A stretch of DNA of 64,000 bases, taken from contig OX419757.1 in NCBI GenBank assembly GCA_948567375.1, forward strand, positions 67,401,836-67,465,835, given 5' to 3'. The notes beneath the pieces are model-generated. The model worked only from the letters and a program-made list of their open reading frames with translations. It made no database searches and was not told the origin of the DNA. Numbering within the stretch: the first letter of the stretch is position 1; each line of letters begins with the position of its first letter. The DNA comes from Lunularia cruciata (lineage: Eukaryota; Streptophyta; Marchantiopsida; Lunulariales; Lunulariaceae). Of the stretch, positions 4,126-41,010 are shown one piece after another. Position numbers and translations under genes: made by a program.

Positions 4126-4130
4126 GAGCT

Positions 4131-4759
4131 GTTGTGGGTACATACATCGCTATCAACATCATACACTATAGAAGCACAACTCACACATAAGTCATACATA
4201 GACTCTAAAGTGCCACAATAATCAGATTGTTTACAACTCTTGAATCAACTCAACTTAGATTAGTACTTGATCTATCACTCTATAAACTGTCAACAATTGG
4301 GCACTGATTATAGTCAAGCCTCACCCACTCTAGCTAAGAGAATCCAGGTGATGCTCGCCGGCCTCTGTCCACCATAGCCAAGAACTCGAAGGCTCAACAT
4401 CAAAGAAGTGAGCTCTCTGGAGTTGCACTTTGAAAGTATATCCCTGGACTTGAACTAGGTTTGGAACCCTAACAGTCCCGCTGGCAGCACACTCAACGGT
4501 GCAAATGATGCAAAGTGACGTTGGTCCCTATCGTGAAGTCAGTACTCCAAACATGAAATCTGACCGTTGGAAAGTAGTATATGGGAAACTGCTAAAATAC
4601 CTCTTACTACTATCATTGCAACTCTAGTGTCCAAGCAATCTAGATGCAACACTACAAATGGTGTGACAGTTGTCGTGCATATATACATCACTATCAACAT
4701 CATACACTATAGAAGCACAACTCACACATAAGTCATATATAGACTCTAAAGTGTCACAA
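4131..4759. repeat. Direct repeats of ~89 bp (4131-4218, 4671-4759) bracketing a 452-bp block
   Basis: Both copies contain CATCATACACTATAGAAGCA and end in CTCTAAAGTGYCACAA; they differ at only a few positions. They lie immediately left and right of the 452-bp LTR-like block. This is far too long for a gypsy target-site duplication. A polypurine-like tract (minus-strand TAGGGAGGCAA) sits just right of the second copy. Confidence 0.7.
4219..4670 (-). repeat. 452-bp LTR-like block, left copy (3' end of element D?)
   Basis: This block is repeated in the same orientation at 20304-20755. On the minus strand it begins TGTCACACCATT and the right-hand copy ends in GATTACA, giving TG...CA termini. The two copies flank the whole D region, so they are the best candidates for its LTRs or part of them. 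The flanking 89-bp repeats and the lack of an adjacent primer site next to the right copy leave this unproven. Confidence 0.5.
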
Positions 4760-4933
4760 TTGCCTCCCTAGTTGGCGGTTAGGTCCCTCAAACTCTAGAT
4801 AGCCATCTGCTCCATGTATATGGTATGCTCTATGATGGGCAAAGATCAGATGGCCGAGTGCTATGGAGCCTCATTGTTAGTCGTCTGTCTGCAATCTATA
4901 CCATATAAAGAATGAACTAGCTATAGGTCAAGT

Positions 4934-5217
4934 TCATCTAGGACATAACCACTGTCCCTTAGGAACCACCATGAGGGGAAGAGTCATACATGCCATATGC
5001 CATCCTTTTTCCATCCTAACATAGAAGCAGCTCCACCAGAAGAGCCACATAACATACACCTCAAGCCTGCACGTACAAGTGCCAAGCTTGGGTCCATAAT
5101 ACCATCAATGTTTGGGAGGTGGCATGGCGCACAATTGCACACATGATCCTTCCAAAAAACACCATCACCTCCTTCTAACACAAGGACTCCATATGGCAAA
5201 ACCTCACGCACTCTCAA
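4934..5217 (-). pseudogene. Element D: PHD finger at the integrase C-terminus (broken)
   Basis: An open segment (5217-4984) carries LRCMLCGSSGGAASML, the first Cys pair of a PHD finger (CxxC at 5058-5047). A small lesion then removes the second Cys pair and shifts the frame. The other frame continues GWHMAC (His at 4999-4997, Cys at 4990-4988) and ends QWLCPR followed by TGA where the last Cys is expected. The Trp two residues before the seventh Cys is present. Five of the eight C4HC3 zinc ligands are visible. PHD fingers read the histone H3 tail, often its lysine-4 methylation state. At this place, after integrase, chromoviruses have a chromodomain, so an integration-targeting role is a reasonable inference. 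The upstream residues HVCNCAPCHLPN form a further Cys-rich patch. Confidence 0.75.
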
Positions 5218-5299
5218 GATAATGCGGCTTGTTGAAACATCAAGTGTTGTCTGTGTTTTCTACTATAAATATACATAGTCACCTAGATGAAATTGATGG

Positions 5300-6560
5300 A
5301 TCAAGGGTCTATAACCTCCTCCTCAAATAGTAGCATAACATAAGGTATCCCTATGCTAAGCAATCACCAAGTTCTCAAAGGCCATCGGCATCACTCTCCA
5401 AAAGATCTCTGCCCATTGAGAACATGCGTTCACCCATACATCTGGATCATCCAAGTCTAAGACTACAGTAACATCTCAACAAATGGCTATAGGTAAATCT
5501 GGATCTTGTCCATAGAGTAGGAAGTAAGGAGAGAAAGATGCTAAGGATGCTTTTTGGCTAAACCGATAGCCCATGGCCAACCAAGGTAATTGGAGATCCT
5601 AATCTCCCAAGTGGCCTCTCTGCAAACCATACTTTTGCAATCCTCTCTTCACCATCTAAACCACTCTCTCTGCTAAGCCATATGCCTTAGGGTGATCTCG
5701 GGATGTAGTACAATGATCAATCAAAGCCTTGTCATATAAGATCTAAAACTCCCCCAAGAACTCTATACCCCGATCAGTCAAAACCTCAATTGGTGCACCA
5801 AAATGACTAATAACTTGATCCAAGAACGAGTAAGCTATCCCTTCACTAGACTTGTCAAGAAGTGCAACCAACTCAATCCACTTGGAGAAGTGTTACACCA
5901 TCACCAAAACATACCCATGATGTCTCACAATCAACGGTAAAGGTCCAGCAAAGTCCAAACTCCAATGGTAACCCAATCCCATGATAGGTAATGGGTGTAA
6001 CTGTGGTGTAGAAGCATTGAATGATGCTCTACCTTGGTCACAAACCACACATTTGGCAACAAATTGCTGTACCTTGGTCTGCATACCACGCACTAATAGT
6101 GACTTTGGAGTAAGCTATATGGACAATTTACTCCAAAATGTCTTAGCTCCTCATGAGCATGACGGACCAACTGTAGTCTATGAGATGGAAGTGGTACTAC
6201 TCTCACTCTACCATCCTCTCATACACGTAAACGGTGTTTGCCCTCCAATCTGAACCGTTTGGCTTGCTAGAGAACACAATCTCTCTCCTTGACCCTAATT
6301 GTGCCACCCACAACACAAGTGCAAAGATATTCCATCACTAAGACATCATCATGAATGTCTTGCTAAACTATACCAATATCTTCACTCTTTGGATCTGTGA
6401 TCTCAATAACTCCTCTTGTATGCATTGAGAGAGATACTACCAAAGTCTCAGAAAATATACAAAGAAAGGTAGATGCATGCTAACCTGGCACCATCTCCTC
6501 ATTTGTCTCACCATGCCAATGTGCTCCGGTCTGATCCTGTTGGTTGGGACATGGGTTTCT
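5300..6560 (-). pseudogene. Element D: integrase (broken)
   Basis: The zinc-binding and core start is open at 6093-5893: KCVVCDQ gives the CxxC of the HHCC finger and YHWSLDFAGPLP carries the first catalytic Asp. Further left the minus strand gives, with frame changes, a KWIELVAL-like phrase, EVLTDRGIEFLGEF with the second Asp near 5790-5760, and GLAERVVQ with the Glu. Next come LPWLAMGYRFSQKASL and SPYFLLYGQDP. These are the normal landmarks of a gypsy integrase that inserts the cDNA into the nuclear genome. Multiple stops make it inactive. Confidence 0.75.
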
Positions 6561-6881
6561 ACTCAACCCATCTGCATCATGGTTCACAACTCTAGGTATA
6601 TGAACAACCGTGAAATTATACTCTTGTAAAATCAGAGCCCATTATGCAAGCTTTCTTGAAAGCTTGTTGGACTCCATCAACCACTTCAGTGGCTGATGAT
6701 TAGTGATGAGAGTGAAGGGGTTACCAAATAGGTAAAATAAAAAATGTGTTATTACCCAAACTACTGCCAAGCACTCTCTCATATGAACTATACTTTGCCT
6801 CCGCTGAATTGTTGGAGCGACTAGCATAGGCCACCAAAAACTCCTTCCCCCCTTCATCATGCTAAGTGAGCACTGTTCCAA
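6560..6881 (-). pseudogene. Element D: RNase H domain (broken)
   Basis: The phrase ECLAVVWVITHFLFYLFGNP followed by FTLITNHQPLKWLMES is a typical gypsy RNase H segment. The usual TDHQ motif reads TNHQ, so an active-site Asp is changed to Asn. It continues past a stop into a LILQEYNFTVVHIPRVVNHDADGLSRNP-type tail ending near 6560. Just upstream the reading frame jumps from the RT N-terminus, which implies a deletion. Confidence 0.75.
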
Positions 6882-7355
6882 GCCTCAACATACTCCAATT
6901 GGTGTGAAATCTCCACCAAACCATTCTCAAAAAGGTCACTACTCTGGCTCTGAATCAATGTCCTCTCCATATCACTATAACGATAAGGACATTGGAAAAC
7001 TGGTGTATTGCTATTCAGCTCAATCCATATACTGGGTCCCTTTAGAGCACCCAAATCCTTTATATTGAAGGAAAAATAACTTGTGTACCTCCTCAACAAC
7101 CTCCAAACTCTCCGTCTTTCCTCTCTTGTAAGCTTGGGTCCAAGATCTGGCTCCCAAGTATCCTCTGTAAGTGTCATAGGAGTAGAAGATGTACTGATTG
7201 GCTACTACACTAGACCCTTGTAGTGTCATGCCCCCAATCACTAGAGGTCCCAACCTTTGTGTGAAAAACTCCCTCCACTTTGGCTTCAAGCTCCACACGT
7301 CCTCTAGTTGCATCCCAAGTAGACCAAGGATGTTATTCAAGTAACCCATGCTCAC
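6857..7355 (-). pseudogene. Element D: reverse transcriptase N-terminal part, palm deleted
   Basis: At 7177-6857 the minus strand reads FSFNIKDLGALKG, then PVFQCPYRYSDMERTLIQ and LFENGLVEIS, the segment that precedes the palm in gypsy RTs. A preceding linker is open at 7355-7020. The expected palm with its YxDD box is missing: within a few codons the sequence continues as RNase H. The deletion is inferred to exceed 400 bp. RT would copy the element RNA into DNA in cytoplasmic particles. Confidence 0.7.
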
Positions 7356-9110
7356 CTAGATGGACTCCAAGTAGACCATTCTCCCTAGTAGCTACCAGCT
7401 GTGTCCCAAGAATACCATGTCCACTCAGTCCATTGCTCCCATCATGTGCTTGAATCGTCTCGATAGGCACAAAGCTCACAAGTGTCCAAGTGGTGATGCC
7501 TATCAAGCGCATCCTATGCTGATCTGCCAATCCAAGTCTCACAATCCAAGTCAAATAGTTCAGGTCCATAGCCTAACGTAACACTTGATGCTTGGATGCC
7601 TTTGACACTACTAGAACTGTGAGCCGGCCTATCTCTCACTCAAGGTGAACCTCTGATGGCTATTATGGTAGCGCACCATGGACTAAGAAGGCAAGGAACC
7701 CCAACTCCATCATACTCCTCCAAGGCTAACACTCCAAGACTAAAGACATTGCTCACTAGAGAACTCAATGAGAGAGAGATAGTTGCAAATGAAAGGATGA
7801 TGAGTACCTCCTCACCCCTTGTTTATATACTTGTGAACTAGTTACGTACCAAAGTTACTAATTACCGTAGTAACTCAAGTTACTAGACTAAAGGTCAAGT
7901 AAAGTCAAAAAGTAGAAAGGAATATCCATTCACATGGGCATATTCCCCTAAGCATGTGGTCTTATCTTGACCCAACCACTAATTCAAGGATTCATTCACA
8001 TGGGCTATCCTTGGACTAAAGAAGAATCCAAAACAAAAATGCTTGCGGGCCCAAGAGTTCTCTTCTACTTCCTATAGAGGAAAGTCCCCTCTATCTTAGC
8101 TATGACTAACTTTAGCTAACCATGACTAATATAGAACCATCCTTTATCTCTATATAAATAATATCTCTTAAGTACTTGTAATACCAAGCTAAATATCACA
8201 ATACCACACACATGCACAAATGGGTGTTACAGAACAATGGTAATATTGGTGCAAAAACCCATTGCTCGCTCTCTCTTATTGGTATTGAGCTCCACCAACT
8301 ACTGTAATTGTGAGTCACAAACAAGTCTAGGACCTCTCTCTCAAAATGCATGAAAGCCTAGGAAACTCATGAGTGTGAGAAATGAAGCTCTAGGCTGTCT
8401 AACTAGGTTCACTATTGCCATAGGTGACCTATTAGCCACTGCCACTATCTGAGACTGATGCCCAATATCCAAGATATAATCAACAAGGATGTGGTCGAGT
8501 CGTTGAATCCCATCATATGCACATTGTAGAACCTCTCTGGGTAAGAGGTTTGCCCACCAAAGATGAAGACAATGAGCCTATGATCCCACTCTGGCTACAT
8601 CTAACAATATAGCAAGTCCCATCCAAGATGGACCTGATGTGTACTTGCCATCACTCTAGTGTGAGAATCACCCATCAAAGGAACGGTCTCCAAAATGTAA
8701 GCTGGAGAAATAGATTGATGAACTTGGAGATGTCATAGTATCCATAACATCTCCCAAAACACACCAGAACAAAGATCATGAAGATCCAAACCTTGGCCAA
8801 TATGTGTATGTCTCTGACATGGCCATCAAGAAATCACCAAGTGAACAGGCCCATGTCTCTCCAAGTCTTGTGCTCCCAACAAGGAAATATCTGTTGGTAG
8901 AGTCTTCTGGTAACCCCTGACTGCTGACATCGATAATAACTCTAGATACTGATAGGCAAAGTGTGACACATGATGTAGAGAGACTTGCCTAATAGTCTCA
9001 TCTCTCTCCACATACAAGTGCCTCTATACTCGTATACTTGCATGTAATACTGCAACTATTTCAATGCTAATCCCACCAAACAACTCCAATAGACATGTCT
9101 CCTCTACTAG
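7333..9110 (-). pseudogene. Element D: cytosine-5 DNA methyltransferase domain, split by a solo LTR
   Basis: Conserved C5-methyltransferase motifs appear in correct order on the minus strand. Motif I is LLELFGGIS (9090-9066; the S-adenosylmethionine loop). HGPVHLVIS then runs up to a TGA at 8828-8826, followed by motif IV WPCQ at 8825-8814 with the catalytic Cys. Motif VI reads YILETVP (8699-8679), Thr replacing Asn of ENV. A frameshift near 8610 leads into a target-recognition-like region with LWWANLLP and RSPMAIVN. The pre-motif X phrase NKRERAMGF (about 8270-8245) comes next and, after the inserted LTR (7618-8231), QAMDLN (about 7577-7560). The total is about 330 residues, the size of a catalytic domain. 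It lies between protease and RT in the polyprotein. It carries several stops and is inactive now. Confidence 0.82.
7618..8231 (-). mobile_element. Family A solo LTR inside the D methyltransferase
   Basis: It begins TGTGAGCCGGCC and ends GGGTGTTACA, the reverse complement of the family A LTR. The 4-bp target duplication GAAC is present at 7614-7617 and 8232-8235. Length is 614 bp against about 690 in other copies, because of an internal deletion near 8070. The methyltransferase reading resumes exactly across the insertion. A solo LTR is what remains after recombination between the two LTRs of a full insertion. Confidence 0.9.
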
Positions 9111-9422
9111 ATACTGCCAAGCAATGAGTGTGGTATCTAGAGGTGTCAAGGTGGTTGGCTCTAGAGGCTCATCTTCACACTCATCTCTTGATGGTATGAA
9201 GGTTCCACTCCAAGCTTGTTGCACCAACTGATTTGCATGTTGCTGCAATGCCTCCTCCAAACTCCACAATGGAACATCCAAGGTGGATGGAACAATCCCA
9301 CTTATATTGTAAATCCAAGTGATCTCTTCTAGTATTGGAGTTTCCTCTGCAAAGGCATTCCCCTCCAACAAGTCACTAGGCCAAGTAACTGCACCACTAA
9401 AAGTTGAAATTGATGTTGCCAT
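9024..9422 (-). pseudogene. Element D: linker before and start of the methyltransferase
   Basis: A 132-codon open segment. Its first ~100 residues are an acidic linker of unknown function (TPILEEITWIYN, then CEDEPLEPTTLTPLD) that joins protease to the methyltransferase. Its end holds motif I, LLELFGGIS, at residues 111-119. The initiating Met is only the first ATG of the open stretch and not a real start, because the polyprotein is continuous with protease upstream. Confidence 0.65.
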
Positions 9423-9431
9423 GGTCTCGGA

Positions 9432-10209
9432 CTATAGTGAGCCAAGATTGCCACTATTGAAGCATACTGGCAAGCAACATACCCGTCCTTCACCAGACTG
9501 CCAACTTGGTCTATAGGAGGCTGTCTCCTCCCAATAGTCAATACTTAAACCCATGGGGTATAACACTGCTCTCCCAATTAGCACATCATATGACTCATTT
9601 ATTGTTGCAATAGCCTGAGCTCTCACCACCGAGCTATCAATTAGATGACCAGGCTGAATCTAGACAACAAGCTCCTCACGTGTGATGTACTGAGTCAAAC
9701 CACCACCTAGAAATGTTTGGATCTGAAATAGACACCTCTCCACATTGGTCTTTCGTAACTCCCAACCAATTATTGCTGCCTTCCCCAACATAAAGGGTTG
9801 CTCACTAGAGTCTAACAAGACTCCTTGTGGTGTATAGACCTTCCATGAAGGTCACACCAAGCACAAAATCCCCTTTTGGTTATCCAATAGGACAACACCA
9901 GGTGTGAACTGCGCTCTCTCAAAGGCTAGTCTTGCTAGCAACTCCTCCAATCTAGCCGTTGCTACCTACCATAAACCAATGGTTGCCAAATGGATCCCAT
10001 GCTCCTCAACCAAGTCAGCCCACTATCAACCGCCTTTGCTCTAGTAGTAGGAATTGCATCATCCTTACTCTCACAAAGCATGGCAGCCAACCGGAACACT
10101 GGGGTTGGATCAACTCCCAATATAAACATGTCACTGGCTGAAAATAAAGGGCATTCCATAATCAGCTGAGCGGCCCCCAACATCATGCTAGACTTAGTCT
10201 GTGTAGTAG
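9432..10209 (-). pseudogene. Element D: aspartic protease region (broken)
   Basis: The open segment 9629-9432 reads SYDVLIGRAVLYPMG followed by DYWEETASYRPSWQSG. This matches the C-terminal half of retroviral-type proteases, where a hydrophobic strand and IGR/ILG turn precede the end of the domain. Frames between 10209 and 9630 give the preceding part, with a DSGLTWLRSM-like stretch near 10030. The domain would release gag and pol products. It is cut at 10209 by element B1 and resumes at 16816. Confidence 0.55.
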
Positions 10210-10947
10210 TGTAATACCAAGGGTTAGCCATATGATCTAGATGTGAAATTTGGTTTGGTAACATCTAGAATGATGTTATATATGATGGTCAAAATAGATC
10301 AGATAGAAGTATCACCAAAAGAGTACTTCTACTAATAGGGCAGAAACCGAAATAGACTTGAGAACCTTAGAACCAATAGCTAGACATATGATTTAAAGGT
10401 GAGAATTGGTTTGGTAACATCTGGAAGGATGTTACACATGATGGACTAAACAGATCAGAAAGAGGTATCACCAAAAGGGGACTTCTACTAATAGAGTAGG
10501 AACCGAAATATGCCTGAAATCTTTGAAGGCAATTTCGGAGGCCTAAACGGATGAATTAGGCCTCGAAAATGTGCAGATCCCCCCCAATGGAGGAATGGCT
10601 GGCCTCCCCTCCCCCCTTGGTTTGTCTTGTCGAGAGCTTTCCAACGGTACCTTACTCATGTGATTCTGAGATTACTACAGGAAGATTCCCTAAAAGATTC
10701 CCTCTAGTCAAAGCTCGTTTGACCAACCAGATAGGACCTAGACCAGACAGGTCACCCATCTAAGTAAGTAATCCAAGGGTGGAGCTTGCTGACATGTCAC
10801 CTATCTGTGTCCCTAATCCTATGGTGGAGCTTCCTTGTAGGAGATCCTCTTTGTCTATATAATAAAGAGAAGGTGCTCCCTTGGGGCATCGAATGTTTGA
10901 GTGTGCAATCTATGTTTTCTCTCTTCTCTTGTCCTCGGAGTATTACA
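10210..10947 (+). repeat. B1 5' LTR
   Basis: It starts TGTAATACCAAGG and ends GGAGTATTACA, with inverted terminal TGTAATAC/GTATTACA. The U3 part holds two imperfect tandem copies of about 156 bp (about 10211-10366 and 10367-10522), each with a TTGGTTTGGTAACATCT phrase and an ACTTCTACTAATAG phrase. A TATA box (TCTATATAATAAAG) lies at 10854-10867. Confidence 0.95.
10854..10867 (+). promoter_or_regulatory. TATA box in the B1 LTR
   Basis: TCTATATAATAAAG lies 80 bp before the LTR end and is identical in the 3' LTR (16721-16734). It is the likely core promoter for element RNA. Confidence 0.6.
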
Positions 10948-10948
10948 A

Positions 10949-10960
10949 TGGTATCAGAGC
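10949..10960 (+). other. B1 primer-binding site (initiator tRNA-Met)
   Basis: TGGTATCAGAGC, one base after the 5' LTR, is complementary to the 3' end of plant initiator methionine tRNA, the usual primer for chromovirus reverse transcription. Confidence 0.9.
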
Positions 10961-11087
10961 GAGTGTTCTAGTCCAAGAGAGTGGATCACCCCTCTTGGAA
11001 TAGCACGAACTACTGAAACTGAGTAATTTGAGGTGGAGAACATAGAGTAATCGCTAGACTTAGGAAGGACTTTAGAGAGCGGATGGG

Positions 11088-12565
11088 ATGGATGCGCCGG
11101 GGGGACAATTTCCCGCACCTAGCTTTCCATTCTCAAACCCATTCCACATCAAGGTTATGTACATTCAGTGTGAGCAGATGAGAGTATCGCTAGTTTATCA
11201 CTTTGGTGCGGAATTCATGGACAGAGTGATGAACTCACCAAACCCGGTGATTCTACCTGTGGTGATATATGACAGAGAGTGGGATTTGATGATCTACATT
11301 CTATTATGATAATATGGATATGAATGTCCCAAATCCTCTCCCTTTTAACACTCAAGTAGAAATCCGTTATGTAGTGAGGCCAAAATTGATGTTTAGAGAT
11401 TTTGTGGTTAGGAATTTTGGTGAAGAGTATTATCAACGAGTGATAGCTTCTGAGGTCCTAATGGTAGTTCCGATAGTTCGTGCGCCTTCCAGAGTGATTA
11501 TATTGACTCTGTATTGAAGTAGACGTTAGCAATTGGGGTGTTGCAGGAACCATGGATCCGCAGTTGCAAGAGCTGGTGCAAGGAATGCAAGGGATGTTGA
11601 ATGAATTTTGAGAGATTAAGATGACCATGGAGACATTGCAAAGTCAAGTGCAGATCCTCAGGAACGATCAAGCCATGCAAGAAGAAGAGCCGTCTCAAAA
11701 CCCAGTACCTGCGACTGAAGTACTTGGAGAGGCACCCGTGCCTACGAACCCTATCAACGATGAAGCCACATTGCTACTCCGGATGAAGAAGACCTGCAAC
11801 ATCAAGCCTTACAAGGGGCAGCGTACGATAGGAGTAGTGGAGAATTGGATCTCGAGAATGAATCAATATTTTTGATTGTTCTCAACAGAGATCACAGAGC
11901 ATGCTACAAGCGTGTTTGCATGTGGGTACTTGACCGATAAAGCCCTCACATGGTATGATGCTTGGGAATGATCCATGCTAGCAGAGAGAAGGGAGGTCAC
12001 ATGGACAGCAATGCAAGAAGGACTGCTCAAGAATTTCCAATCGGTGGATTCTAAGCAGATGGCTCGAACCCGACTATGGGGATTGAGACAGAAGAATAAC
12101 GTACAAGAGTATGTGGAGGCGTTTCTGGATCTACAAGTTGCAATTACCGACATGAGTCCAGCAGAGGCTCTCGACAATTTCAAACAAGGGTTGAAAGAGT
12201 GGATTCACCAAGAAGTCATGGTGCAAAACCCTTGCACGGTATTTGAAGCTATTGCTTGTGCGTGGAGAATAGCCGGAGCATTAGGTGGAGGTGATGGAGT
12301 AGTTCCACCTCAACATTATTGGGCAGAAATGCCACACATGGGTGGACCAGTACCGATGGAATTGGGCAACCTTCGATTCCGGGATCGAGGAGCACGGCCG
12401 CTTCAAGGAGAGCGGGGACGGGTAGAAGAACGAAGAGATGGAGTCCCACGAGGAGAAGGGACTCAAGGAGAACAACGCCGTTGTTACAATTGTGGCCGTA
12501 TTGGGCACATATCTACCAATTGTCGCACTCGTTTCCCTAAAGGCCCTCGGCCTTCGTACAGGTGA
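11088..12565 (+). pseudogene. B1 gag (nucleocapsid/capsid), interrupted by stops
   Basis: The ATG at 11088 (MDAPGGQFPAP) is the probable start. Stops near 11307, 11515 and 11873 and a break near 11970 divide it into open pieces, the last at 11975-12565. The capsid part contains YKGQRTIGVVENWISRM and ALTWYDAWE, typical of plant retrotransposon gag. The zinc knuckle CYNCGRIGHISTNC (C-x2-C-x4-H-x4-C) is intact at 12482-12523 and would bind element RNA. A basic, arginine- and glycine-rich stretch precedes it. Confidence 0.85.
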
Positions 12566-12630
12566 TCTTTGAACAACATGGAGAGGCACATTGAAGAGGA
12601 GGAGGTGGAAACCACTTCAGAAAATGAAGA

Positions 12631-13299
12631 TTGCCAATAAAAGTACCTCGCGGCCTTACTGGCTCAATAAGGAAGCAGAGAAGCGAGGGAAGGAAGAAGA
12701 ATAATGTGCAAAGATCCCGAAAGGCAACCTCACAATTGATTGTTGTGAATGGAATCCTAGAAGGTAATCAAGTGAGAGTATTAATAGATCCGGGAGCAAC
12801 AGAGAATTTCTTGTCTTGCTCTGTTGCAATAAGCTTGGGAATGGATCTAGAGAGAGATGGAAGTGAAGAAGTAGAGTTACCAAATGGGCAAACAGAGATG
12901 ATTGAATCATTACCTAGACGGGTAACACTCTCTATAGGAGAATATCAGGAAGCAATTGAGTGGCGAGTGATACAGTTAGCCCGTTATGATGCAATTTTAG
13001 GCATGCCATGGATGGAGCAGTACAACCCAATGGTGGATTGGAGGAAGAAAGTAGTGAGAACCCACCAATGGTCAATCATTGGGGTTAAAGAAAAATCACA
13101 CAAGCAGAAACTGCCTCTATATGTCATAGGGACAACAACTGTTTGTAAGATCGATAGATGTTTTATGGGTCTAATAAGAGAAGTCCAGAGTGCACAACTT
13201 GCTGGACAAATTCCTGAGAAATTGACGGATGTAGTGGATGAGTTTCAAGATGTCTTTCCTGATGATCTACCCTCAGGATTACCACCTAAAGGCGAGTAG
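12631..13299 (+). pseudogene. B1 aspartic protease and start of RT
   Basis: VRVLIDPGATENFLS (near 12775-12815) is the active-site loop; the usual D-S/T-G reads D-P-G (12787-12795). The second half is seen in RYDAILGMPWMEQYNP. The C-terminal part leads into EFQDVFPDDLPSGLPP, the conserved entry to chromovirus RT. A one-base frame change near 13290 ends the open frame just before RT proper. Confidence 0.8.
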
Positions 13300-13877
13300 A
13301 TCACAAAATAGAGACACTCCCGGGGAAGACACCTCCTTGTAAGGCCCCATATCGCCTATCACCTCATGAGTTGGAGGAGTGTAAGACTCAAATTGAGGAG
13401 ATGCTATAGAAAGGGTTCATCCAACCTAGCGTATCACCATATGGGGCCCCTGTCTTGTTTGTGAAGAAGAAGGATGGTACAATGCGCATGTGCATTGACT
13501 ATCGAGGTCTCAATCAGCAAATAGGGAAGAAAAAATACCCCTTACCTCGTATGGATGACCTGTTTGATCAACTCCATGGAGCGAGATACTTCACCAAACT
13601 GGACTTGCGGAGCGTTTACAATCAAATCCGAATTGCAGAGGAGGATGTGTACAAAACTGCCTTTCAAACCAGGTATGGCCACTTTGAGTATCTTGTGATG
13701 CCTTTTGGCCTCACCAATGCGCCTACCACTTTCATGAGCCTAATGAATGACATATTTTGTCCATACTTGGATAAGTCTGTTATCGTCTTCTTGGATGATA
13801 TCTTAGTATATAGTAGCATGATGACAGAACACAAATAACATCTACGAGAGGTCCTCCAGATTCTAAGACAGAATCAG
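13300..13877 (+). pseudogene. B1 reverse transcriptase palm and fingers, with two in-frame stops
   Basis: After the frame change, the reading LSPHELEECKTQIEEML is stopped by TAG near 13407 and continues [35 protein letters not shown] follows, where Gly of the usual RSGY is Val. The catalytic box FLDDILVYS is intact near 13790-13816. A TAA at about 13836-13838 stops it again. The stops look like single C-to-T changes. Confidence 0.85.
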
Positions 13878-15557
13878 TTGTACGCCAAAATCTCAAAGTG
13901 TGAGTTTGGCAAGTCTGAAGTAGACTACTTAGGGCATAGAGTAAGTGCAGAGGGCATTCAAGTATTGATAGATAAAATAGAGGTCATTCAAAAATGGAAT
14001 GCCCCAGAAGATCAGACTCAACTTAAGAGCTTCTTGGGGTTGACAGGATTCTATTGTAGATTTGTCAAGGACTTCTACAAGGTTGCACAGCCTTTAATGG
14101 CACTACTTGGCAAGGGGAAGAAGTGGACATGGGGAACTACACAAGAGTTGGCCTTTCAAGAATTGAAGGCCGCCTTGCTACATGCACCAATCTTGAAGTG
14201 GTATGACCCAAAACGTCCAATCAAGTTAGCTACTGATGCATCAGGCGTAGCAATAGGAGCAGTCCTACAACAAGAGTGGCATGACGGATGGCATCCAATT
14301 GCATATTTCTCTCGAAAGTTGTTACCGGTAGAGCGCAACTACCACACCACAGAACGAGAAGAGCTGGCCATTGTTCTAGCAACCAAGCATTGGAAGCACT
14401 ACCTGGGTGAGAAGGCATTTGTAGTAGAGATAGACCAAAAACCTCTAGTCTACCTCAAGACGCAGAAGGATCTATCTCGTTGCCAAATTCGGTGGGCAGA
14501 GTGGCGACAACGCTTCAACATGACAATCACCTACGTGGAAGGTAAGAAGCAACTTGCAGATGCATTCACCCGCATGCCAATGGCCAACAACTTGGCGGCA
14601 GAGGTTAAGATTAACCCTGAATTCTGGCAAGAGATTCTAGCTGCTACAAAAACTGATCCACAGATTGTAGAAGCACAATCGTCCAAAGGTGTCACCAGCA
14701 CCCAAGGACTCACCTTTTGGGAGGGCCGATTGTGGATCCCAAATGTCCTAGAATTACACACCACCATTCTAGCGGAATGTCATGATTTGGCCATTGTAGC
14801 TCATGTTGGAGTGGACAAGACCTTGGAGGCAGTCAAGCGCCATTACTATTGGCCCAAGATGAACAACGATGTGATGGACTATGTGCGTAGCTGCCTACTT
14901 TGTCAACAGAACAAAGCTTCTAATCAAGCTCCTGCAGGGCTCCTTCAACCTCTTCCCACTCCTACCCAACGTTGGGAACAAGTGAGTATGGATCTTGTCT
15001 GTGAATTACCCAAGACCACCTTAGGGTTTGAATCCATTGTGGTCTTTGTGGACCGGCTCAGCAAAATGATTCATGTCCGCCCTACCACCAAGGAGGTGAC
15101 CGCTCCACAACTAGCTCAACTATACTTAGATGCAGTCTTTGCTCACCATGGCTTGTCTAGAGTACTCATCACCGATAGAGGCATCCAATTCACCAGTTTG
15201 TTTTGGCAAACACTCTTTGGTTTCTTCAAAACCAAGTTGGCCATGTCTACAGCTTACCACCCACAAACAGATGGCCAAACAAAGCGTGCTAATCGCACGA
15301 TTGAAGACATGTTACGCGGCTTCACCTTAGAAGAGCAAGAGAGGTGGGACACCCTACTACCGTTGGTGGAATTCGCTTACAACAATTCAGTGAATGCCTC
15401 CACCCAGGTCACTCCGTTCTTCCTCATGTATGGTGAGCATCCCTTCACACCTTCTAGCTTGATGAAGATCCGTCCAGTGACTACCAAGGTTGATGCAATC
15501 AACACATTTGTTTCTAGAATCCAACAAGGTGTGGAGAGCGCCAAGCACAGGTTATAG
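13878..15557 (+). CDS. B1 RT thumb, RNase H and integrase (559-codon open frame)
   Basis: The frame opens in the RT connection ([16 protein letters not shown]). RNase H follows, with [16 protein letters not shown] and the [15 protein letters not shown] segment. The integrase HHCC finger ends in CLLCQQNK. The integrase core carries all three catalytic acids: Asp in [10 protein letters not shown], Asp in [10 protein letters not shown] and Glu in [15 protein letters not shown]-type region begins after 15430. The frame is part of the polyprotein and has no start of its own; it ends at a TAG at 15556-15558. Within these domains I see no missing catalytic residue, which is unusual in this window. 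Confidence 0.88.
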
Positions 15558-15605
15558 ATTACGCAAAATTGACAAAAGCAGTATGTTGATGCACACCGTA
15601 GGCAC

Positions 15606-16064
15606 ATGGAGTTCAATGTTGGGGATCAAGTGTGGCTATCGACAACCAACCTCACATTAGTTGGATCTTGTAAGCTCAGACCTCGTTTTATTGGGCCTTT
15701 CTCGATTCTTCGTTGCATCGGCGCTGTGGCCTATCACCTTGAGCTACCACCACACATGAAGATCCATCCAGTGTTCCATGTCTCCCTATTACGCAGATAT
15801 GCTCCCCGATCAGGCCAAGGTACTTCCACACAGGACATTTGACCTTGTCCGACAGTCATTGATGGCACAGAGGAATATGAAGTGGAGCGGATTCTCCAAA
15901 AGCACATGCGTGGTACTCGCCATCCGCGGGTGGAATATCTAGTACAATGGAAAGGTTACCCCCTCTATGAAGCAACCTGGGAACCCGCTGCCAATTTGGC
16001 ACATGCACCGGTGTTGGTGCAAGCATTTGAGCAACAATTGCACAACGAGGACGTTGCATCTTAA
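15606..16064 (+). pseudogene. B1 integrase C-terminus with chromodomain
   Basis: 15606-15842 reads [24 protein letters not shown] and [12 protein letters not shown], the GPY/F module. After a stop, EEYEVERILQKHMR and VEYLVQWKGYPLYEATWEP form a chromodomain (about 15867-16025). Its aromatic cage positions (Tyr in EYEVE, Trp in WKGY, Trp in TWEP) are all present. Chromodomains of chromoviruses are known to direct integration to methylated heterochromatin. The frame ends at 16062-16064. Confidence 0.88.
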
Positions 16065-16077
16065 AAGGAGGGAGGTC
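16062..16077 (+). other. B1 polypurine tract
   Basis: TAAAAGGAGGGAGGTC directly precedes the 3' LTR and would prime plus-strand synthesis. Confidence 0.85.
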
Positions 16078-16815
16078 TGTAATACCAAGGGTTAGCCATA
16101 TGATCTAGATGTGAAATTTGGTTTGGTAACATCTAGAATGATGTTATATATGATGGTCAAAATAGATCAGATAGAAGTATCACCAAAAGAGTACTTCTAC
16201 TAATAGGGCAAAAACCGAAATAGACTTGAGAACCTTAGAACCAATAGCTAGACATATGATTTAAAGGTGAGAATTGGTTTGGTAACATCTGGAAGGATGT
16301 TACACATGATGGACTAAACAGATCAGAAAGAGATATCACCAAAAGGGGACTTCTACTAATAGAGTAGGAACCGAAATATGCCTGAAATCTTTGAAGGCAA
16401 TTTTGGAGGCCTAAACGGATGAATTAGGCCTCAAAAATGTGCAGATTCCCCCCCCAACGGAGGAGAAGCTGGCCTTCCCTCCCCCTTGGTTTGTCTCGTT
16501 GAGAGCTTTCCAAAGGTACCTTACTCATGTGATTCTGAGATTACTATAGGAAGATTCCCTAAAAGATTCCCTCTGGTCAAAGCTCGTTTGACCAACCAGA
16601 TAGGACCTAGACCAGACAGGTCACCCATCCAAGTAAGTATCCAAGGGTGGAGCTTGCTGACATGTCACCTATCTGTGTCCCTAATCCTATGGTGGAGCTT
16701 CCTTGTAGGAGATCCTCTTTGTCTATATAATAAAGAGAAGGTGCTCCCTTGGGGCATCGAATGTTTGAGTGTGCAATCTATGTTTTCTCTCTTCTCTTGT
16801 CCTCGGAGTATTACA
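16078..16815 (+). repeat. B1 3' LTR
   Basis: Same 738-bp length and termini as the 5' LTR. It is followed by the AGTAG target duplication at 16816-16820. Confidence 0.95.
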
Positions 16816-17152
16816 AGTAGCAAGTGGCTGACTAGCAAGTAGTCTATCATGCACTCTATCACCACCTACCGCACCTACATTGGGACGTCTAGGAGCCATG
16901 GATGCTATTTGCAATGCCTCGGATAGCATGAAAGACATGGGGAAGTCTGACCTATCTCCCAATCTCTCCTCTCTATAGGTCCAACTCCATTGATGCTCCT
17001 CTAGGCTCTAGAGCATGTACTGCACTCCTAGTCACTACTACAAATGCATCCACCTGTGTTGCTCCACACATGAAGTCCAATGGATCTCTATCACCAACAT
17101 ATGAGGTGGAAGATTCAACACCAAAATCTGATCTCCTTTGAGCAATAGCTAT
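16816..17152 (-). pseudogene. Element D: gag-to-protease segment
   Basis: The minus strand reads AQRRSDFGVESSTSYVGDRD then PLDFMCGATQVDAFVVV, open between the C solo LTR and B1. It lies downstream of the gag zinc knuckle and upstream of the protease in D. I recognise no specific domain in it. Confidence 0.5.
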
Positions 17153-17519
17153 TGTAAAAGACCGAATCCAAGGAGAGAAATAGGAGAATGGAAACTCACA
17201 TTGGGACACTTGAATGAGGGAAAACTCCAAATGCCTAGCATGAGCTTTGGCTTTGGTATTTATAGGTAACATACAAGGTCCTTGAGAAGCTTCTCAAGAA
17301 GCTTCCTTCTAGAAGCCGCCTACTTGGCGTGCAAGCTAAGCTAGTTGGAAGCTTCTAGAAACTTCCTTCTAGAAGCTACTTACTTGAGGTGCAAGCTAAG
17401 CTAGCCAAGAAGCTTCCCAAGAAGCTTCCTAGATACTTCCGGAATATTCTAGGCTACTTTGTCTTATGTGCTACTTTGTAAGCCCGACTAACTTCATCAC
17501 TAAACTCCATATTGTTATA
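17153..17519 (-). mobile_element. Family C solo LTR with a perfect heat-shock element, inside element D
   Basis: It begins TGTAAAAGACC and ends CCATATTGTTATA, the reverse complement of the C LTR. Flanks GCTAT (17148-17152) and GCCAT (17520-17524) form a 5-bp target duplication with one mismatch. A TATA box (minus strand TATAAATA) lies at 17257-17264. Confidence 0.88.
17347..17366 (-). promoter_or_regulatory. Heat-shock-element-like array in the C solo LTR
   Basis: GGAAG-CTTCT-AGAAA-CTTCC: four adjacent alternating pentamers fitting nGAAn/nTTCn with no mismatch. It sits about 85 bp upstream of the LTR TATA box. More GAA/TTC pairs lie at 17285-17330 and 17367-17380. Confidence 0.7.
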
Positions 17520-17629
17520 GCCATATTAGCCAATCTTTGCTCCAACTGCTTAATCCAAGTAGCCATAGCTGTATCAAAAGTAAGGGCAGGTACCACACCT
17601 CTACCAAGTGTAGATCCTCTACCACCACC

Positions 17630-17863
17630 TCAACTACCTTGTCCTCCATGAACTAGAGCTCCTCTACTACTTGCCATAGCAGCCCTACCACTCCATAACT
17701 TCGGGTGTAGGTCAAAGCACCGGTCACTAGCGTGACCAAATCTGTGGCAATGCTCATACTGCCTCTGTGCTGGCTGTGATGCACCAGAGGTATCAGGTTC
17801 ATTGCCCTGAGTACATCTATGGTGAGGTCCACCACAAGTCCAACAAGCAACACCACTACTCAC
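17630..17863 (-). pseudogene. Element D: gag zinc-knuckle region
   Basis: The minus strand encodes QYEHCHRFGHASDRCFDLHP, a retroviral zinc knuckle in which the first Cys is replaced by Tyr (Y-x2-C-x4-H-x4-C). An upstream CWTCGGPHHRC looks like a first, degraded knuckle. The knuckle is the nucleocapsid part of gag that packages element RNA. The segment is open for 77 codons and is followed on the left by the C solo LTR. Confidence 0.7.
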
Positions 17864-18892
17864 TAGCTATTTCTGACCCAAAAATGAAGGTAAGGGTCGA
17901 GCTCCACTAGGCCCTCCACTCGCTCCATAGGATCTGGGCTGTCCACCCTATCCTCAAAAACCAACTGGGCGTGGTGCACTCTGCTACACTCTAGAAGAAG
18001 TAACAACTATGGATGAGGTCTCCCTACCAAATCTAGATGTCACCACTCTCTCCTCCACCATGTTGAGCTCAATACGCTCAGCCAAACCAAAGACCACTAC
18101 CAAAGTGGGCAAAGTAGCCTATAACAACATAGCATCACAAACTCTATGTCACAACTCCCTATCTAGTCTCATATACCAAAACTGGACTTCTTTTTCCTCA
18201 ATAACTCCCTAAGTGAAACTGATCAGCCACCTTATGCGAGTGTATGCTTGTGTAGGCTCTCTCTAGCCTTCCATTGGAGCTCCTACAAGCTCCTCAACTT
18301 GTTAGTCCACACTCCATGGTAGTTCTGTCTTAAACACCAAAAGAACTCCGCCATGGGGTTAAACCCTGGTACCACACCACCTCCTGTAGTAGTACCTCCA
18401 CTCGTGATAGCACTATCTCTAGCTAGTGCACCTCCACTAGCCCCACCAACACTACTCAAGCTAGAACTCATGGGTACAACAGATCTACTCTTGGCAACCA
18501 AGCTGAAGTAATAGAGACATAGTTCAAAGACTAATATTATCTCCATAACTCAATCTCCTCCAAATGAGCTCTCCTAAACTCATGGTAGTCTTCTATTGGC
18601 AAACACTCCAAATATTGAAACAACCATTTCCATGCCATGAAAAGTGTAAACAAAGTCATGTTCCATATCTATTGCAGATCACATCAACTATCAAACTTCT
18701 AGATGAAGTCATCCAACTCAATGGTACCCACTATACTAGAGTAACACCTAGGCCCTTTGGAGGCTCCATAAATCTTATCCATGTCCCACAACAACGGTGC
18801 GGATATACTAAGTGCACTCTCAACTAAATCAACTCCTATATCAAACTCCAACTCAAAGTCAATCTCCTCCTTCATTGGGACCTAAGATACAA
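17864..18892 (-). pseudogene. Element D: gag N-terminal region (degraded)
   Basis: This lies between the primer-binding site and the zinc knuckle. Open pieces include 18546-18283, with a Ser/Gly/Thr-rich stretch (SGGTTTGGGVVPGFNPMAEF) followed by a WCLRQNYHGVW-like phrase. Further left is a RLDRELWHRV-like phrase. Position and composition suit capsid, but I see no firm motif. Confidence 0.45.
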
Positions 18893-18903
18893 GCTGATAC
18901 CAA
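18893..18903 (-). other. Element D primer-binding site
   Basis: The minus strand reads TTGGTATCAGC, matching the first nine bases of the initiator-Met tRNA site (TGGTATCAG), at the 5' end of the D coding region. Confidence 0.6.
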
Positions 18904-20303
18904 GCACCACTCTGAGTAAACCCTCTGTGTACTACAAGGCTAACTCCTCTGGAATCCCCAAAGAACTCCATCATGACAAAGTAATGGCAATTGCAACCGC
19001 AAACCGGAACCACAAACTACAACCGCAACCGCAAGTACTCCACCAAGTGCCAATACCAACTGAGCACCACCAAGTGCCAATACCCATGGAAGACCACCCA
19101 CTAATTTAACTCTAATTGAGATAACTACACTAGGGCGACTTGTAACCTGCCATCACAACACACACTCTCACGGTCTACAGGTCATCACTTCTTGCTTCAT
19201 CGGAGAGAAACAAATGTAGTCTCGATGGTCATCACTCCAGCCTCACTACAAGAGCACACCAAAGCACCAACACTCTAAATTCAGGGCACCTCACACAAAC
19301 GTGGTGCACAAATAGGAAACAAAGAATGGAGGGGATCCAATCACAAGAAATCAAAATAAAAACCCTTCATCTCATAAAGTAACATAGGACTGACTCTACT
19401 GCCATTGGCATTTGACATAAGAGAAGTTCATATCTACGTCCTAAGCTACCAAGATCACCAAGAATGGGATCAAATTGCCTCTCCTAGCCAAAGCTACAAG
19501 TGTATAGATAACAATGGCACAATCATTAGGACAACAAGTGAGGATGGACTAGTTGGCTAGAGCACCGGTCTAGGAATAAGAGATCTAGGGGTCAAACCCT
19601 ATTGTGCACAATCTAGCAGGATGTGCAGATTTTGCCAAACAATGACCAAGATCTACTCTAAACTAGTTAGCCTTACGCCAGCAAGCTGGCTAGGCCTTTG
19701 TAGCCTCTAAACACCAAAATTCAGCCAAATGAGGCATTTCTTCTTGCCACTTTGAACCCTCTCCAAATCTGGTGAAACTATTCCAAATTTGTGAAACTCT
19801 TCTAAACTTGTGAAACTAATCTAAATCTAGCCAACCAACAAAACTCCTACAATTTTGGCCAAAATCTGACATAAAATCTAACAAAAATTTGACGTAAAAT
19901 CTAATGTAAAATTTGACATAAACCCTAAAGTTGGTTGACCGCCAAATCCTTCTGCTAACTCTTCACTTGAGCAACATTGAAAAAATAGGTTTCTCCAAAT
20001 TACAAACTCATGAGGATAGGTTCTCAACTCCACCTTCAATTTTACTTTCTGAGCCCAACTTGCAACGAATTGATCCTCTCTTCACCTCTTGAGCTCAAAA
20101 TCACAACCATTGCTCAAAATCTACTTCTTCTTTGCTCAAAAATTGGCCATCGCTTTTGCACATCGTTTGCCTTATTGCCAACTTTGCATCAAGCAACGAC
20201 CTTTTGCACACCAGGGAAAAATTGAACTTTGACTGAGCTACCAACGATCCACCCAACACTCATAGTTCTTGCACCCTATTTCCCCTTGATTTCACTTCTT
20301 TGA
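18904..20303 (-). other. Element D 5' terminal region (long LTR or leader), non-coding
   Basis: About 1.4 kb between the D primer site and the right-hand 452-bp block. No convincing coding. It contains short imperfect tandem repeats: CACCAAGTGCCAATACC twice near 19045-19085, a ~24-bp unit with TTGTGAAACT at 19750-19830, and an AAAATCTGACAT-like unit repeated at 19862-19925. If it belongs to the LTR, the D LTR would be about 1.85 kb; no matching 3' copy is visible on the left. Confidence 0.4.
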
Positions 20304-20755
20304 TGTAATCAGATTGTTTACAACTCTCAAATCAACTCAACCCAGATCAATACTTGATTTGTCACTCTATAAATTGCCAACAACTGTGCACTGATTACAG
20401 TCAAGCCACACCCACTCTAGTTAAGAGAATCCAAGTGACGCTCACCGGCCTCTGTCTACCATAGCCAAGAACTCAAAGGCTCAACATTAGAGAAGCAAGC
20501 TCTCTAGAGCTGCACTTTGAAAGTATACCTCTGGACTCAAGCTAGGTCTGGAACCCTAACGGTCCCGCTGATGGCACACTCAACGGTGCGAAGAGTGCAA
20601 AGTGACGGTGGGCCTCACCGTGAAGTCAATACCCCAAACACAAAATCTGACCGTTGGAAAGTAGTCTATGAGAAACTGCTAAAATGCATCTAACTACTAT
20701 CATTGCAACTCCAATGGCCAAGCAAGCTAGATGTGACACTAAAAATGGTGTGACA
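20304..20755 (-). repeat. 452-bp LTR-like block, right copy
   Basis: Termini on the minus strand are TGTCACACCATT and GATTACA. It matches 4219-4670 over its whole length at roughly 85-90% by eye, and shares GGAACCCTAAC, TCCCGCTG and CTGACCGTTGGAAAGTAGT on the plus strand. No target duplication is evident. Confidence 0.6.
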
Positions 20756-34284: not shown

Positions 34285-34711
34285 TGTAACAATATGGAGT
34301 TTAGTGACGAAGTTAGTCGGGCTTATGAAGTAGCACATAAGACAAATTAGCCTAGAATATTCCAAAAATACCTAGGAAGCTTCTTGGGAAGCTTCTTGGC
34401 TAGCTTAGCTTGCACCTCAAGTAAGTAGCTTCTAGAAGAAAGCTTCTAAAAGCTTCCAACTAGCTTAGCTTGCATGCTAAGTAGGCGGCTTCTAGAAGGA
34501 AGCTTCTTGAAAAGCTTCCTAGTTAAACTTGGCTTGCACTCTAAGAAAGCCGCTTGAGGAAGCTTCTTGAGAAGAATCTCAAAAGCCTTGTATGCTACCT
34601 ATAAATACCAAAGCCAAAGCTCATGCTAGGCGTTCAGAGTTTTCACTCATTCAAGTGTCCCAATGTGAGTTTCCATTCTCCTATTTCTCTCCTTGGATTT
34701 GGTCTTTTACA
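34285..34711 (+). repeat. C1 5' LTR
   Basis: TGTAACAATATGG...TCTTTTACA. Three imperfect tandem units of about 58-62 bp lie at about 34377-34560. Each runs from an AGCTTCT/GAAGCTT core through TAGCTTAGCTTGCA to a CTTCTAGAAG-like end. TATA box TATAAATA at 34600-34607. Confidence 0.93.
34429..34512 (+). promoter_or_regulatory. Heat-shock-element-like cluster in the C1 5' LTR
   Basis: CTTCT-AGAAG (34429-34438) is a two-unit element and GGAAG-CTTCT-TGAAA (34498-34512) a perfect three-unit element. A four-unit array seen in the 3' LTR has lost one G here (TAAAAG for TAGAAG near 34448). The cluster ends about 90 bp upstream of the TATA box. Confidence 0.65.
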
Positions 34712-37723: not shown

Positions 37724-37888
37724 ATGTTCCGCGTTCAATTCTACATTAGATCGAAGGAGGCTATGAGAGCTCACTTGGAGAGAACATTGGGAGAGCAGAG
37801 AGCTGAACTTATGTTAGAGTACCAAGATCCATTTGTATACCATGTAGTTCATCATGATGTCTTTGAAGTGATTTTGTACATCTTGTAC
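37724..37888 (+). pseudogene. A1 leader ORF fragment
   Basis: MFRVQFYIRSKEAMRAHLER then a ...PFVYHVVHHDVFEVILYILY end, cut by the nested solo LTR. A2 has the same segment (about 63845-63680, minus) with stops. Function unknown; it is a conserved piece of the family 5' leader. Confidence 0.4.
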
Positions 37889-38580
37889 TGTGAGCCCGCC
37901 TGTCTCTCACACAAGATGAACCTCTGATGGCTATTATGGTAGCGCACCATGGACTAAGAAGGCAAGGAACCCCAACTCCATCGTACTCCTCCAAGGCTAA
38001 CACTCCAAGACTCAAGACATTGCTCACTAGAGAACTCAATGAGAGAGAGATAGTTGCAAATGAAAGGATGATGAGTACCTCTTCACCCCTTGTTTATATA
38101 CTTGTGAAATAGTTACGTACCAAAGTTACTAATTACCGTAGTAACTCAAGTTACTAGACTAAAAGTCAAGTAAAGTCAAAAAGTAGAAAGGAATATCCAT
38201 TCACATGGGCATATTCCCCTAAGCATGTGGCCTTATCTTGACCCAACCACTAAGTCAAGGATCCCTTCACATGGGCTATCCTTGGACTAAAGAAGAATCC
38301 AAAACAAAAAGGCTTGCGGGACCAAGAGTTCTCAACTCTTTCCTCAAAGCCAAACACCTAGGAATAATACCAAGTCAACACACTAAAATCCAAAATAGTG
38401 ATGCTCATCTTTTCTACTTCCTCTAAAGTAAGGTCCCCTCTATCTTAGCTATGACTAACTTTAGCTAACCATGACTAATATAGAACCATCCTTTATCTCT
38501 ATATAAATAATATCTCTTAAGTACTTGTTATACCAAGCTAAATATCACAATACCACACACATGCACAAATGGGTGTTATA
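37889..38580 (-). mobile_element. Family A solo LTR nested in A1
   Basis: 692 bp, TGTGAGCCCGCC...GTGTTATA, opposite in orientation to A1. Target duplication GTAC at 37885-37888 and 38581-38584. Confidence 0.92.
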
Positions 38581-39238
38581 GTACACATGACAGGATTTGG
38601 AGAGATTGTGTGAGGTGGATTGCAGATTTTGGGGATTAAGGTGATTTTGGGCAAAATCTCAAGTTAGAGATCTGAACTTGAAATTTCTACACATGATAGC
38701 TTGGGTTATTTTTCAGTTATAACAATTTGAATTATTCTGAGAGCTATTATGCGCATTGGGCTAGAAGTTTTGAAAGTTGATAGGGTAAATTGCTCTTGCA
38801 ACTGCATGCTCTCTAGAGAATTGTACAAAGTCTGCCATTTCTTTAATTTTTAGTGGATTGTTGTGAAACTTTCCAAAAAAATTGAGTACGTTTTATCCTA
38901 CCTGTTGACCCAAAAATAAGAGACATATAATTCTTTAGAAAGGAGTTATGAGTTTTTGAAGTTAGGGGGGTGGTTTTCAGACCAAATCTGAAATATGTGT
39001 GCTGAATAGAAAGAAGTCTAGTCCAAATGGCTTAACAAAAAGAGCTGAAATTTTTCGGAGAGGGACACCTTGGAGTTGTTATGATGTGCACAAAATTTCA
39101 AAGGACTTTCACATACTAGTTGAGAGATCTCAGTGAAATTGTGATGAAGGATCAATTTTGCAGAGTGGAGATCTCATGCATGAGGAGTTTGAGAGTAACA
39201 AAAAACATGTTTGAGTGGTTAGATTCATCTTGAAAACA

Positions 39239-39662: not shown

Positions 39663-39939
39663 TATAGTACAGAAATACTACCACCTTCATCAGCTAGTTC
39701 TCAAGATTAGTGATGGAGATAATCTTTCAACTCATGGATAAACTATCCATGAGGGTTCGATTAATATGCACTATAGGATTTAATGTTGCTATAGAAATCT
39801 TGGAGCAACCTGAGCCTTTTGTGTTCCCTTGGGTGGATTACTCTCAAATGGTGTTAGTCATATACATACTCTATTAGTTATAGAGTGAGAGAAAAGAAAA
39901 GAGAAAAAAAATTGAGAGAAAGAAAGATAGTGAGAAGTT

Positions 39940-41003: not shown

Positions 41004-41010
41004 GGAGCTT

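Follow-up and report, generated by a model that had tools for sequence, protein, structure and literature searches.

A decayed Ty3/gypsy retrotransposon in the liverwort Lunularia cruciata from a streptophyte lineage carrying a DNMT3-type cytosine methyltransferase

Retrotransposons that carry a DNA methyltransferase (DNMT) have been described, in the main text of PMC5890265, from dinoflagellates and from one charophyte alga, where they are treated as independently captured and their role as unclear. The closest known system to the one reported here is KnitGypsy-Dnmt3 of Klebsormidium nitens (de Mendoza et al. 2018, PMC5890265). The dinoflagellate elements SymbioDIRS-Dnmt3 and SymbioLINE-Dnmt likewise encode a DNMT, and the SymbioDIRS-Dnmt3 enzymes methylated CG de novo (PMC5890265). 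Here we analyze a DNMT-carrying gypsy element in a 64,000-nucleotide stretch of Lunularia cruciata DNA (assembly GCA_948567375.1, contig OX419757.1, positions 67,401,836 to 67,465,835), which is referred to as the window and in which all positions are counted from the first letter. The copy in the window is a dead Ty3/gypsy retrotransposon and belongs to a streptophyte lineage in which a DNMT3-type cytosine methyltransferase has been present for a long time.

An earlier note, made from the window sequence without database searches, had reported C5-methyltransferase motifs in a fixed order on the minus strand. These motifs were located in the window translation in exactly that order, with ELFGGI at ~9085, WPCQ at ~8825, LETV (for ENV) at ~8690, RERAMGF at ~8265 and AMDLN at ~7565. 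The last one had been given as QAMDLN; AMDLN is present, but the position of the Q is a stop codon in the window copy. A frame change at ~8630 precedes the VIII-like stretch, and an insert separates RERAMGF from AMDLN. This insert, which the note had proposed to remove at 7618-8231, is real and represents a solo long terminal repeat (LTR) of another family flanked by a GTTC duplication; together with the frame change and several stops it accounts for the damage seen in the window DNMT. The catalytic Cys and Glu are both retained. In tblastn searches one protein, P0001, matched 9971-8631 (protease included), 8628-8233 and 7629-7453. Searches with the first DNMT piece matched five proteins out of 244 candidates at E ≤ 0.01, all five containing PF00145, with the best match at 5.1e-56 and 59% identity, which is well above chance level. 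Two negative results speak against this identification: PF00145 gave no match on the raw window frames at E up to 1 and up to 10, and phmmer against PDB with the first DNMT piece found nothing at E up to 1. The missing PF00145 match on the raw frames is due to decay and frame changes, and the PF00145 check suggested earlier, which fails on these frames, succeeds on the relatives, since the domain was found in all 11 DNMT relatives of the family alignment at E ≤ 0.01 (first relative: 47.9 bits, cut-off 22). Hence, we regard it as virtually certain that the methyltransferase of the window gypsy element is a genuine element-encoded DNMT. The features of this element are as follows.

4130..20755, minus strand: whole decayed DNMT gypsy element including later insertions, with TG...CA ends, split direct repeats and the 4-bp target duplication GCTC at 20759-20756 and 4129-4126
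20306..20755, minus strand: repeat A1 (5' end), 86.5% identical to A2 over 451 bp
16858..18947, minus strand: gag with zinc-finger region, broken at ~17130-17518 by a short repeat (tblastn of P0004, P0007, P0002, P0003)
10210..16816, plus strand: nested later ordinary gypsy element with ~740-bp LTRs that are 97.4% identical; AGTAG is common to the flanks
9480..10204, minus strand: protease region and linker (tblastn of P0001, P0005, P0007)
8631..9113, minus strand: first part of DNMT with motifs I (ELFGGI), IV (WPCQ) and VI (ETV) (protein matches and tree placement)
8233..8628, minus strand: second part of DNMT in another frame, with motif VIII region, middle region and ERAMGF (protein matches and tree placement)
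7618..8231, no strand assigned: solo LTR of another family inside DNMT, 95.9% identical to 37887-38344 and 95.5% to 38408-38585; duplication GTTC at 8235-8232 and 7617-7614
7453..7617, minus strand: end of DNMT with a stop followed by AMDLN (motif X-like) (tblastn, P0001 residues 633-691 to 7629-7453)
7205..7207, minus strand: conserved UAG between open reading frame (ORF) 1 and ORF2, TAG in 34/34 distinct sequences; next codon changed in the window
6881..7186, minus strand: first part of reverse transcriptase (RT), with ~210 following residues missing (P0011, P0014, P0009 matches)
6459..6915, minus strand: RNase H region (P0005, P0011 matches)
4990..6362, minus strand: integrase with zinc-binding region and rve core (Pfam rve 3.1e-8; P0046, P0062, P0063, P0070 matches)
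4931..5008, minus strand: remnant of a C-terminal PHD finger (P0046, P0057, P0062, P0063 matches)
4668..4760, minus strand: repeat B1, 91.4% identical to B2 over 93 bp
4219..4669, minus strand: repeat A2 (identity to A1)
4130..4218, minus strand: repeat B2 (3' end) (window sequence and repeat comparison)

The nested gypsy element parts the gag of the DNMT element from the protease onwards. Downstream of the DNMT, the first part of the RT, the RNase H, the integrase and the PHD remnant remain, and ~210 RT residues are lost. The earlier outline of the element stands as far as it went, but four features were not part of it: the gag at 18947-16858 on the far side of the nested retrotransposon, the split direct repeats, the UAG in frame between ORF1 and ORF2, and the PHD finger.

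Lunularia cruciata has a 580 Mb assembly, almost twice the size of other liverworts studied, mainly through bursts of Ty3/gypsy elements, as stated in passages of PMC9985172. Copies of the element were searched for in an assembly of 565,766,749 bases. Two DNMT 30-mers occurred at 3,300 and 3,599 genome places and an RT 30-mer at 4,196, while the reversed controls gave 0; the DNMT and RT counts are unlinked, so that elements without DNMT could be among them. A protein search of the genome scored 120 of 12,854 candidates, every one with E ≤ 3.5e-153. Among the first 30 PF00145 loci, 25 (L005-L030 minus L015) matched the retrotransposon-encoded DNMTs (retro-DNMTs), and five did so weakly or not at all. 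Twenty 10-kb stretches around PF00145 matches were then compared, selected for long open frames from 123 scored of 2,161 candidates. The order protease, DNMT, RT, RNase H, integrase, PHD finger was found in 20/20 of them, and the PHD finger was free of stops in every one; gag was also present in 19, the 20th having another gypsy element at this place. The proposal that the methyltransferase belongs to the gypsy element as a regular component, placed between protease and RT, is thus confirmed, and its suggested refutation, absence of the domain from all other copies, fails in stretches that were themselves chosen by a methyltransferase search. The choice by PF00145 score and open frame makes these copies a non-random sample.

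The catalytic Cys of motif IV was conserved in 59/59 rows with a residue at this position (61 rows in total) and the Glu of motif VI in 61/61. By profile and by predicted fold DNMT3 is the closest family, and the motif order is unpermuted. The DRM family was rejected, because the retro-DNMT order I-IV-VI-VIII-X is unpermuted and the DRM-like frames of the host (L002, L015) are permuted. The host assembly contains, in addition to these two permuted frames, a DNMT3-like frame (L001) that is unpermuted. ADD and PWWP domains were not found among the Pfam matches of the five family proteins scanned. A chromodomain was likewise not found among the Pfam matches of P0046, P0062 and P0063, the three scanned proteins that reach the integrase C-terminus; a PHD finger lies there, and the chromovirus class does not apply. 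The PHD finger is nearest to those of CHD4, KMT2, DPF3 and KDM5B, among others, and from the preference of the CHD4, KDM5B and DPF3 fingers it would be expected to bind unmodified H3K4. Gypsy RT, RNase H and integrase occur with the DNMT in one polyprotein, as in elements of the KnitGypsy-Dnmt3 kind.

The relatives comprised 70 DNMT domains found by protein search. They came from liverworts, a moss (Sphagnum), Closterium and other sources, and those placed in trees grouped together. In a 77-row tree, 63 retro-DNMT rows (57 found proteins, three G000 copies, L051 and the two window pieces) formed one group with an SH-like approximate likelihood ratio (SH-aLRT) support of 98, separate from both DNMT3 rows (host and human) and from the 12 phage enzymes. 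The two window DNMT pieces grouped with the G000 copies (support 100). Thirteen of the 70 domains, which were shorter than 270 residues and included both Sphagnum sequences, were left out of this tree and of the motif count, and proteins whose domain order was not visible were labelled before-RT in it by default. The retro-DNMT group was recovered at 87/88 in a 36-row tree using 28 of 61 retro-DNMT rows (window pieces uncounted), with the after-RT type at 96/98, and at 100/100 in a 27-row tree rooted on DNMT3. Retro-DNMTs grouped with the host and human DNMT3 against the phage enzymes, these two being the only DNMT3 rows in the trees. In an RT tree of 14 rows the DNMT elements were separated from three further gypsy elements found in the window (99/98). 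The DNMT does not occupy one slot throughout: in P0046 it lies between RNase H and integrase, and in P0055, P0058, P0060 and P0061 it follows RT or RNase H sequence.

Five of the 13 short domains, both Sphagnum rows included, were placed later in the 27-row tree. Here the Sphagnum rows stood beside Marchantia rows (95/93) inside a 12-row bryophyte-type group (100/99). This position of P0039 and P0051 inside the liverwort retro-DNMTs (with Marchantia P0007, P0011 and P0041) conflicts with the host tree, a discrepancy for which horizontal transfer or the sorting of old lineages could be responsible. Among genome contigs, L051 (contig CADCWO010000201.1, a Synechococcales metagenome-assembled genome) was the sole match, one of 108 pattern stretches. 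Its DNMT is ~49% identical to the first sequence of the profile, and it carries gag, protease, DNMT, RT and integrase, with a PHD finger farther along on the same contig. From this domain content L051 is most likely a eukaryotic contaminant in the cyanobacterial genome, and a prokaryotic origin was rejected. Viral contigs yielded weak relatives only (14 loci from 45 stretches); 12 of them entered the tree as phage, and L060 was too short and L062 was not used.

The ends of the element are split direct repeats. In the window copy A1 lies at the 5' end and is followed by B1-A2-B2 at the 3' end (4760-4130). An A1-A2 pair longer than 340 bp was visible in 16/20 stretches (88.9-99.8% identical), a B1-B2 pair in all 14 copies examined of the 20, 13 of them with the long A1-A2 pair, and two B ends were seen in 18/20. 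The DNMT gypsy family thus has the DIRS-like repeat structure of the KnitGypsy-Dnmt3 kind. The DIRS order is defined by a tyrosine recombinase in place of the integrase and by insertion without target duplication. It was rejected, because an rve integrase is present and 4-bp target duplications flank 4/4 copies with both ends in view as well as the window copy (GCTC). The canonical TGG primer site is absent after A1 of this integrase-bearing split-repeat element.

ORF1 was open over 1,428 codons in two of the 20 stretches, where it encodes Gag, protease and DNMT and ends in TAG, and ORF2, with RT, RNase H, integrase and PHD finger, was open over 1,037 codons in two others. The best DNMT and RT matches lay in the same frame in 18/20 stretches. 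The junction between both ORFs was found in all 46 sequences examined, of which 34 were distinct, the window included. Its codon was TAG in each of the 34, followed by CAR-YYA in 31, with the window copy among the three exceptions; L051 has the same junction (TAG CAA TCA). UAG-CARYYA is described in passages of PMC5382211 as the type I readthrough signal of tobamoviruses. As the DNMT is the last domain of ORF1, ahead of the UAG, its production at Gag level with UAG readthrough appears likely from the ORF layout. Among the environmental relatives, thirteen proteins of 1,330-1,451 residues in which RT is not visible end 74-142 residues past the DNMT although their contigs extend beyond the ORF, which fits a stop between DNMT and RT. 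Evidence against a universal stop comes from P0042, P0063 and P0068, which contain DNMT and RT in one protein, and from the gene models P0005, P0009, P0011, P0014, P0047 and P0051, which join both domains; the Marchantia and Sphagnum models among these (P0005, P0009, P0011, P0014, P0051) may have been drawn across a stop. P0008 and P0039 illustrate that automatic annotation can label such polyproteins as DNA (cytosine-5-)-methyltransferase.

Full-length DNMT copies were compared in 35 distinct sequences, of which 12 contain no stop, and their variation suggests that the DNMT was probably under selection while the element transposed. Singletons appeared neutral (129/174 nonsynonymous, expected 0.734), and shared variants were depleted in nonsynonymous changes, with 80/127 for variants in at least two copies (p = 0.011), 42/76 in at least three (p = 0.001) and 17/39 in at least five (p = 1.5e-4). 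Several results weigh against selection. Fisher's test of shared versus singleton variants gave p = 0.043 for the 35 copies and p = 0.16 for the 12 stop-free ones. The pairwise ratio of nonsynonymous to synonymous substitution rates (dN/dS) of the DNMT was 0.51 among stop-free copies (n = 10), near that of the integrase (0.57) and above those of RT (0.37), protease (0.36) and RNase H (0.23). At least one stop was present in 23/35 copies, and 11 shared variants created stops, one of them in 13/35 copies. The depletion among shared variants is blurred by recurrent C-to-T changes.

The copies decayed mostly by such C-to-T changes, which affected 6.7% of CG, 5.2% of CHG and 0.85% of CHH sites in the DNMT copies, and 26/60 CG, 26/98 CHG and 21/278 CHH sites in the window copy. 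Window elements that have no DNMT show the same bias, e.g., 14/21 CG, 35/93 CHG and 199/1,536 CHH, and the decay is therefore no evidence for activity of the element's own enzyme. Self-methylation as a reading of the decay was rejected on this basis, and the CG and CHG bias points to host-wide methylation. The earlier suggestion that the element wrote methylation on its own or on host DNA is still plausible, but it gains no support from the decay.

We consider the following reading, in its entirety, to be likely on the grounds of element anatomy. ORF1 would yield Gag, protease and DNMT, and at a single UAG, mostly in CAR-YYA context, a minority of ribosomes would pass into RT, RNase H, integrase and PHD finger. 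The DNMT would thus be made together with Gag, in excess over RT, and would most likely be packaged in the particle, where it would methylate new double-stranded element DNA de novo before the integrase-PHD protein inserts it. The newly inserted element would then resemble resident methylated DNA. The PHD finger may steer integration, a role proposed for chromodomains. Methylation of cDNA before integration has been proposed by de Mendoza et al. for the dinoflagellate elements (PMC5890265). Taken by itself, action of the DNMT on the element's own cDNA has slightly less than an even chance. More doubtful is the extension to a streptophyte-wide gypsy lineage with a packaged writer (DNMT3-type, at Gag level) and a reader (integrase PHD) that would methylate its own cDNA before integration, which might have aided the rise to thousands of copies and the inflation of the liverwort genome and may have contributed de novo methylation to the methylomes of hosts.

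Other explanations have to be weighed against methylation of the element's cDNA. The domain may have been kept for a different role, such as methylating RNA, binding nucleic acids or helping to assemble the particle. A Gag-level position would suit a structural or RNA-binding function, and RNA methylation was discussed for the LINE version by de Mendoza et al. (PMC5890265); the family-wide retention of the catalytic Cys and of the ENV Glu, and a fold closest to a de novo DNA enzyme, make such a role rather unlikely. Self-limitation, in which the DNMT would mark new insertions or their neighbours for quick silencing and lower the harm to the host to the element's benefit, could draw on the CG and CHG transitions by which copies decayed. 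As elements without DNMT share this bias and the copy number is very high, we judge self-limitation to be quite improbable.

The origin of the domain also allows for alternatives to one old capture. Capture of DNMT3 by several gypsy lineages would account for the two slots (ahead of RT, or between RNase H and integrase), and a single clade of before-RT rows was not rejected (p-AU 0.267, approximately unbiased test). Yet the retro-DNMTs were apart from the two DNMT3 rows in all three trees (SH-aLRT 98; 87/88, not starred; 100/100), the RTs of DNMT elements were apart from the three other gypsy elements, and the PHD finger accompanies both slots, so that repeated capture seems unlikely. Finally, a host methyltransferase fragment could have entered, or been picked up by, one element by chance, and the host does have DNMT3-like and DRM-like reading frames of its own. 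The copies refute this explanation, which retains a negligible probability: the domain has one slot in all 20 stretches and occurs at thousands of places, relatives exist in other liverworts, Sphagnum and Closterium, and the host DNMT3 falls outside the retro-DNMT group.

Apart from the DNMT element, the window contains further elements and one gene. The nested gypsy element at 10210-16816 is young, and each of its LTRs contains two tandem 157-bp units that are about 80% alike. The short repeat inside gag (17153-17517) recurs at 48035-48446 and partly at 34285-34711. Two inverted copies of another gypsy family (38581-45509 and 57232-63689) are 88-90% identical, with strong decay at CG and CHG sites. 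An intact reductase gene lies at 1532-2521 in a single open frame; it resembles cinnamoyl-CoA or dihydroflavonol reductases and is 63% identical to a Plagiochasma sequence. Its eight best matches are from Plagiochasma, Marchantia and Riccia (identities of up to 64%) and identify the host as a complex thalloid liverwort; a seed plant, the group with which the earlier note had compared the element, was rejected as host. An Rfam scan of the window gave no match at gathering score.

Among the literature matches listed, with subscription papers and most preprints outside their scope, we recognised no report of a liverwort retro-DNMT, nor was there one in the passages of PMC9985172, PMC10952607, PMC5784723, PMC8616336, PMC6453930, PMC6338049 and PMC2836005 that contain the relevant terms; PMC8775202 and PMC6317226 contained none of these terms. 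The words PHD, protease, Marchantia and moss are absent from the main text of PMC5890265 (figures and supplements not covered), and no Klebsormidium-named protein was among the 70 matches of our protein search. Methylase-carrying retrotransposons, known from a green alga and dinoflagellates, also thrive in land plants, and since relatives occur in Marchantia polymorpha, a genetic model, the role of retrotransposon DNMTs is directly testable.

Compared with described systems, the enzyme shares the unpermuted motif order, closest profile and closest fold with DNMT3A/DNMT3B and plant DNMT3, but differs by the lack of ADD and PWWP in the five proteins scanned and by the location of the element's PHD finger on the integrase. 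Chromoviruses likewise have a histone-reader-type domain at the integrase C-terminus, which is a chromodomain there and a PHD finger in the DNMT family (P0046, P0062, P0063). SymbioDIRS-Dnmt3 and SymbioLINE-Dnmt differ in belonging to other retrotransposon classes and are stated to be independent captures (PMC5890265). With KnitGypsy-Dnmt3, compared by its description in PMC5890265 only, the Lunularia family has in common the gypsy domains, a Dnmt3-type methyltransferase in the polyprotein, the absence of introns and DIRS-like repeats, whereas its land-plant host, its thousands of copies, its PHD finger and the UAG between DNMT and RT set it apart. Beyond KnitGypsy-Dnmt3, the present family extends the range to land plants and adds its copy number, a PHD finger, a predicted leaky stop and two domain slots.
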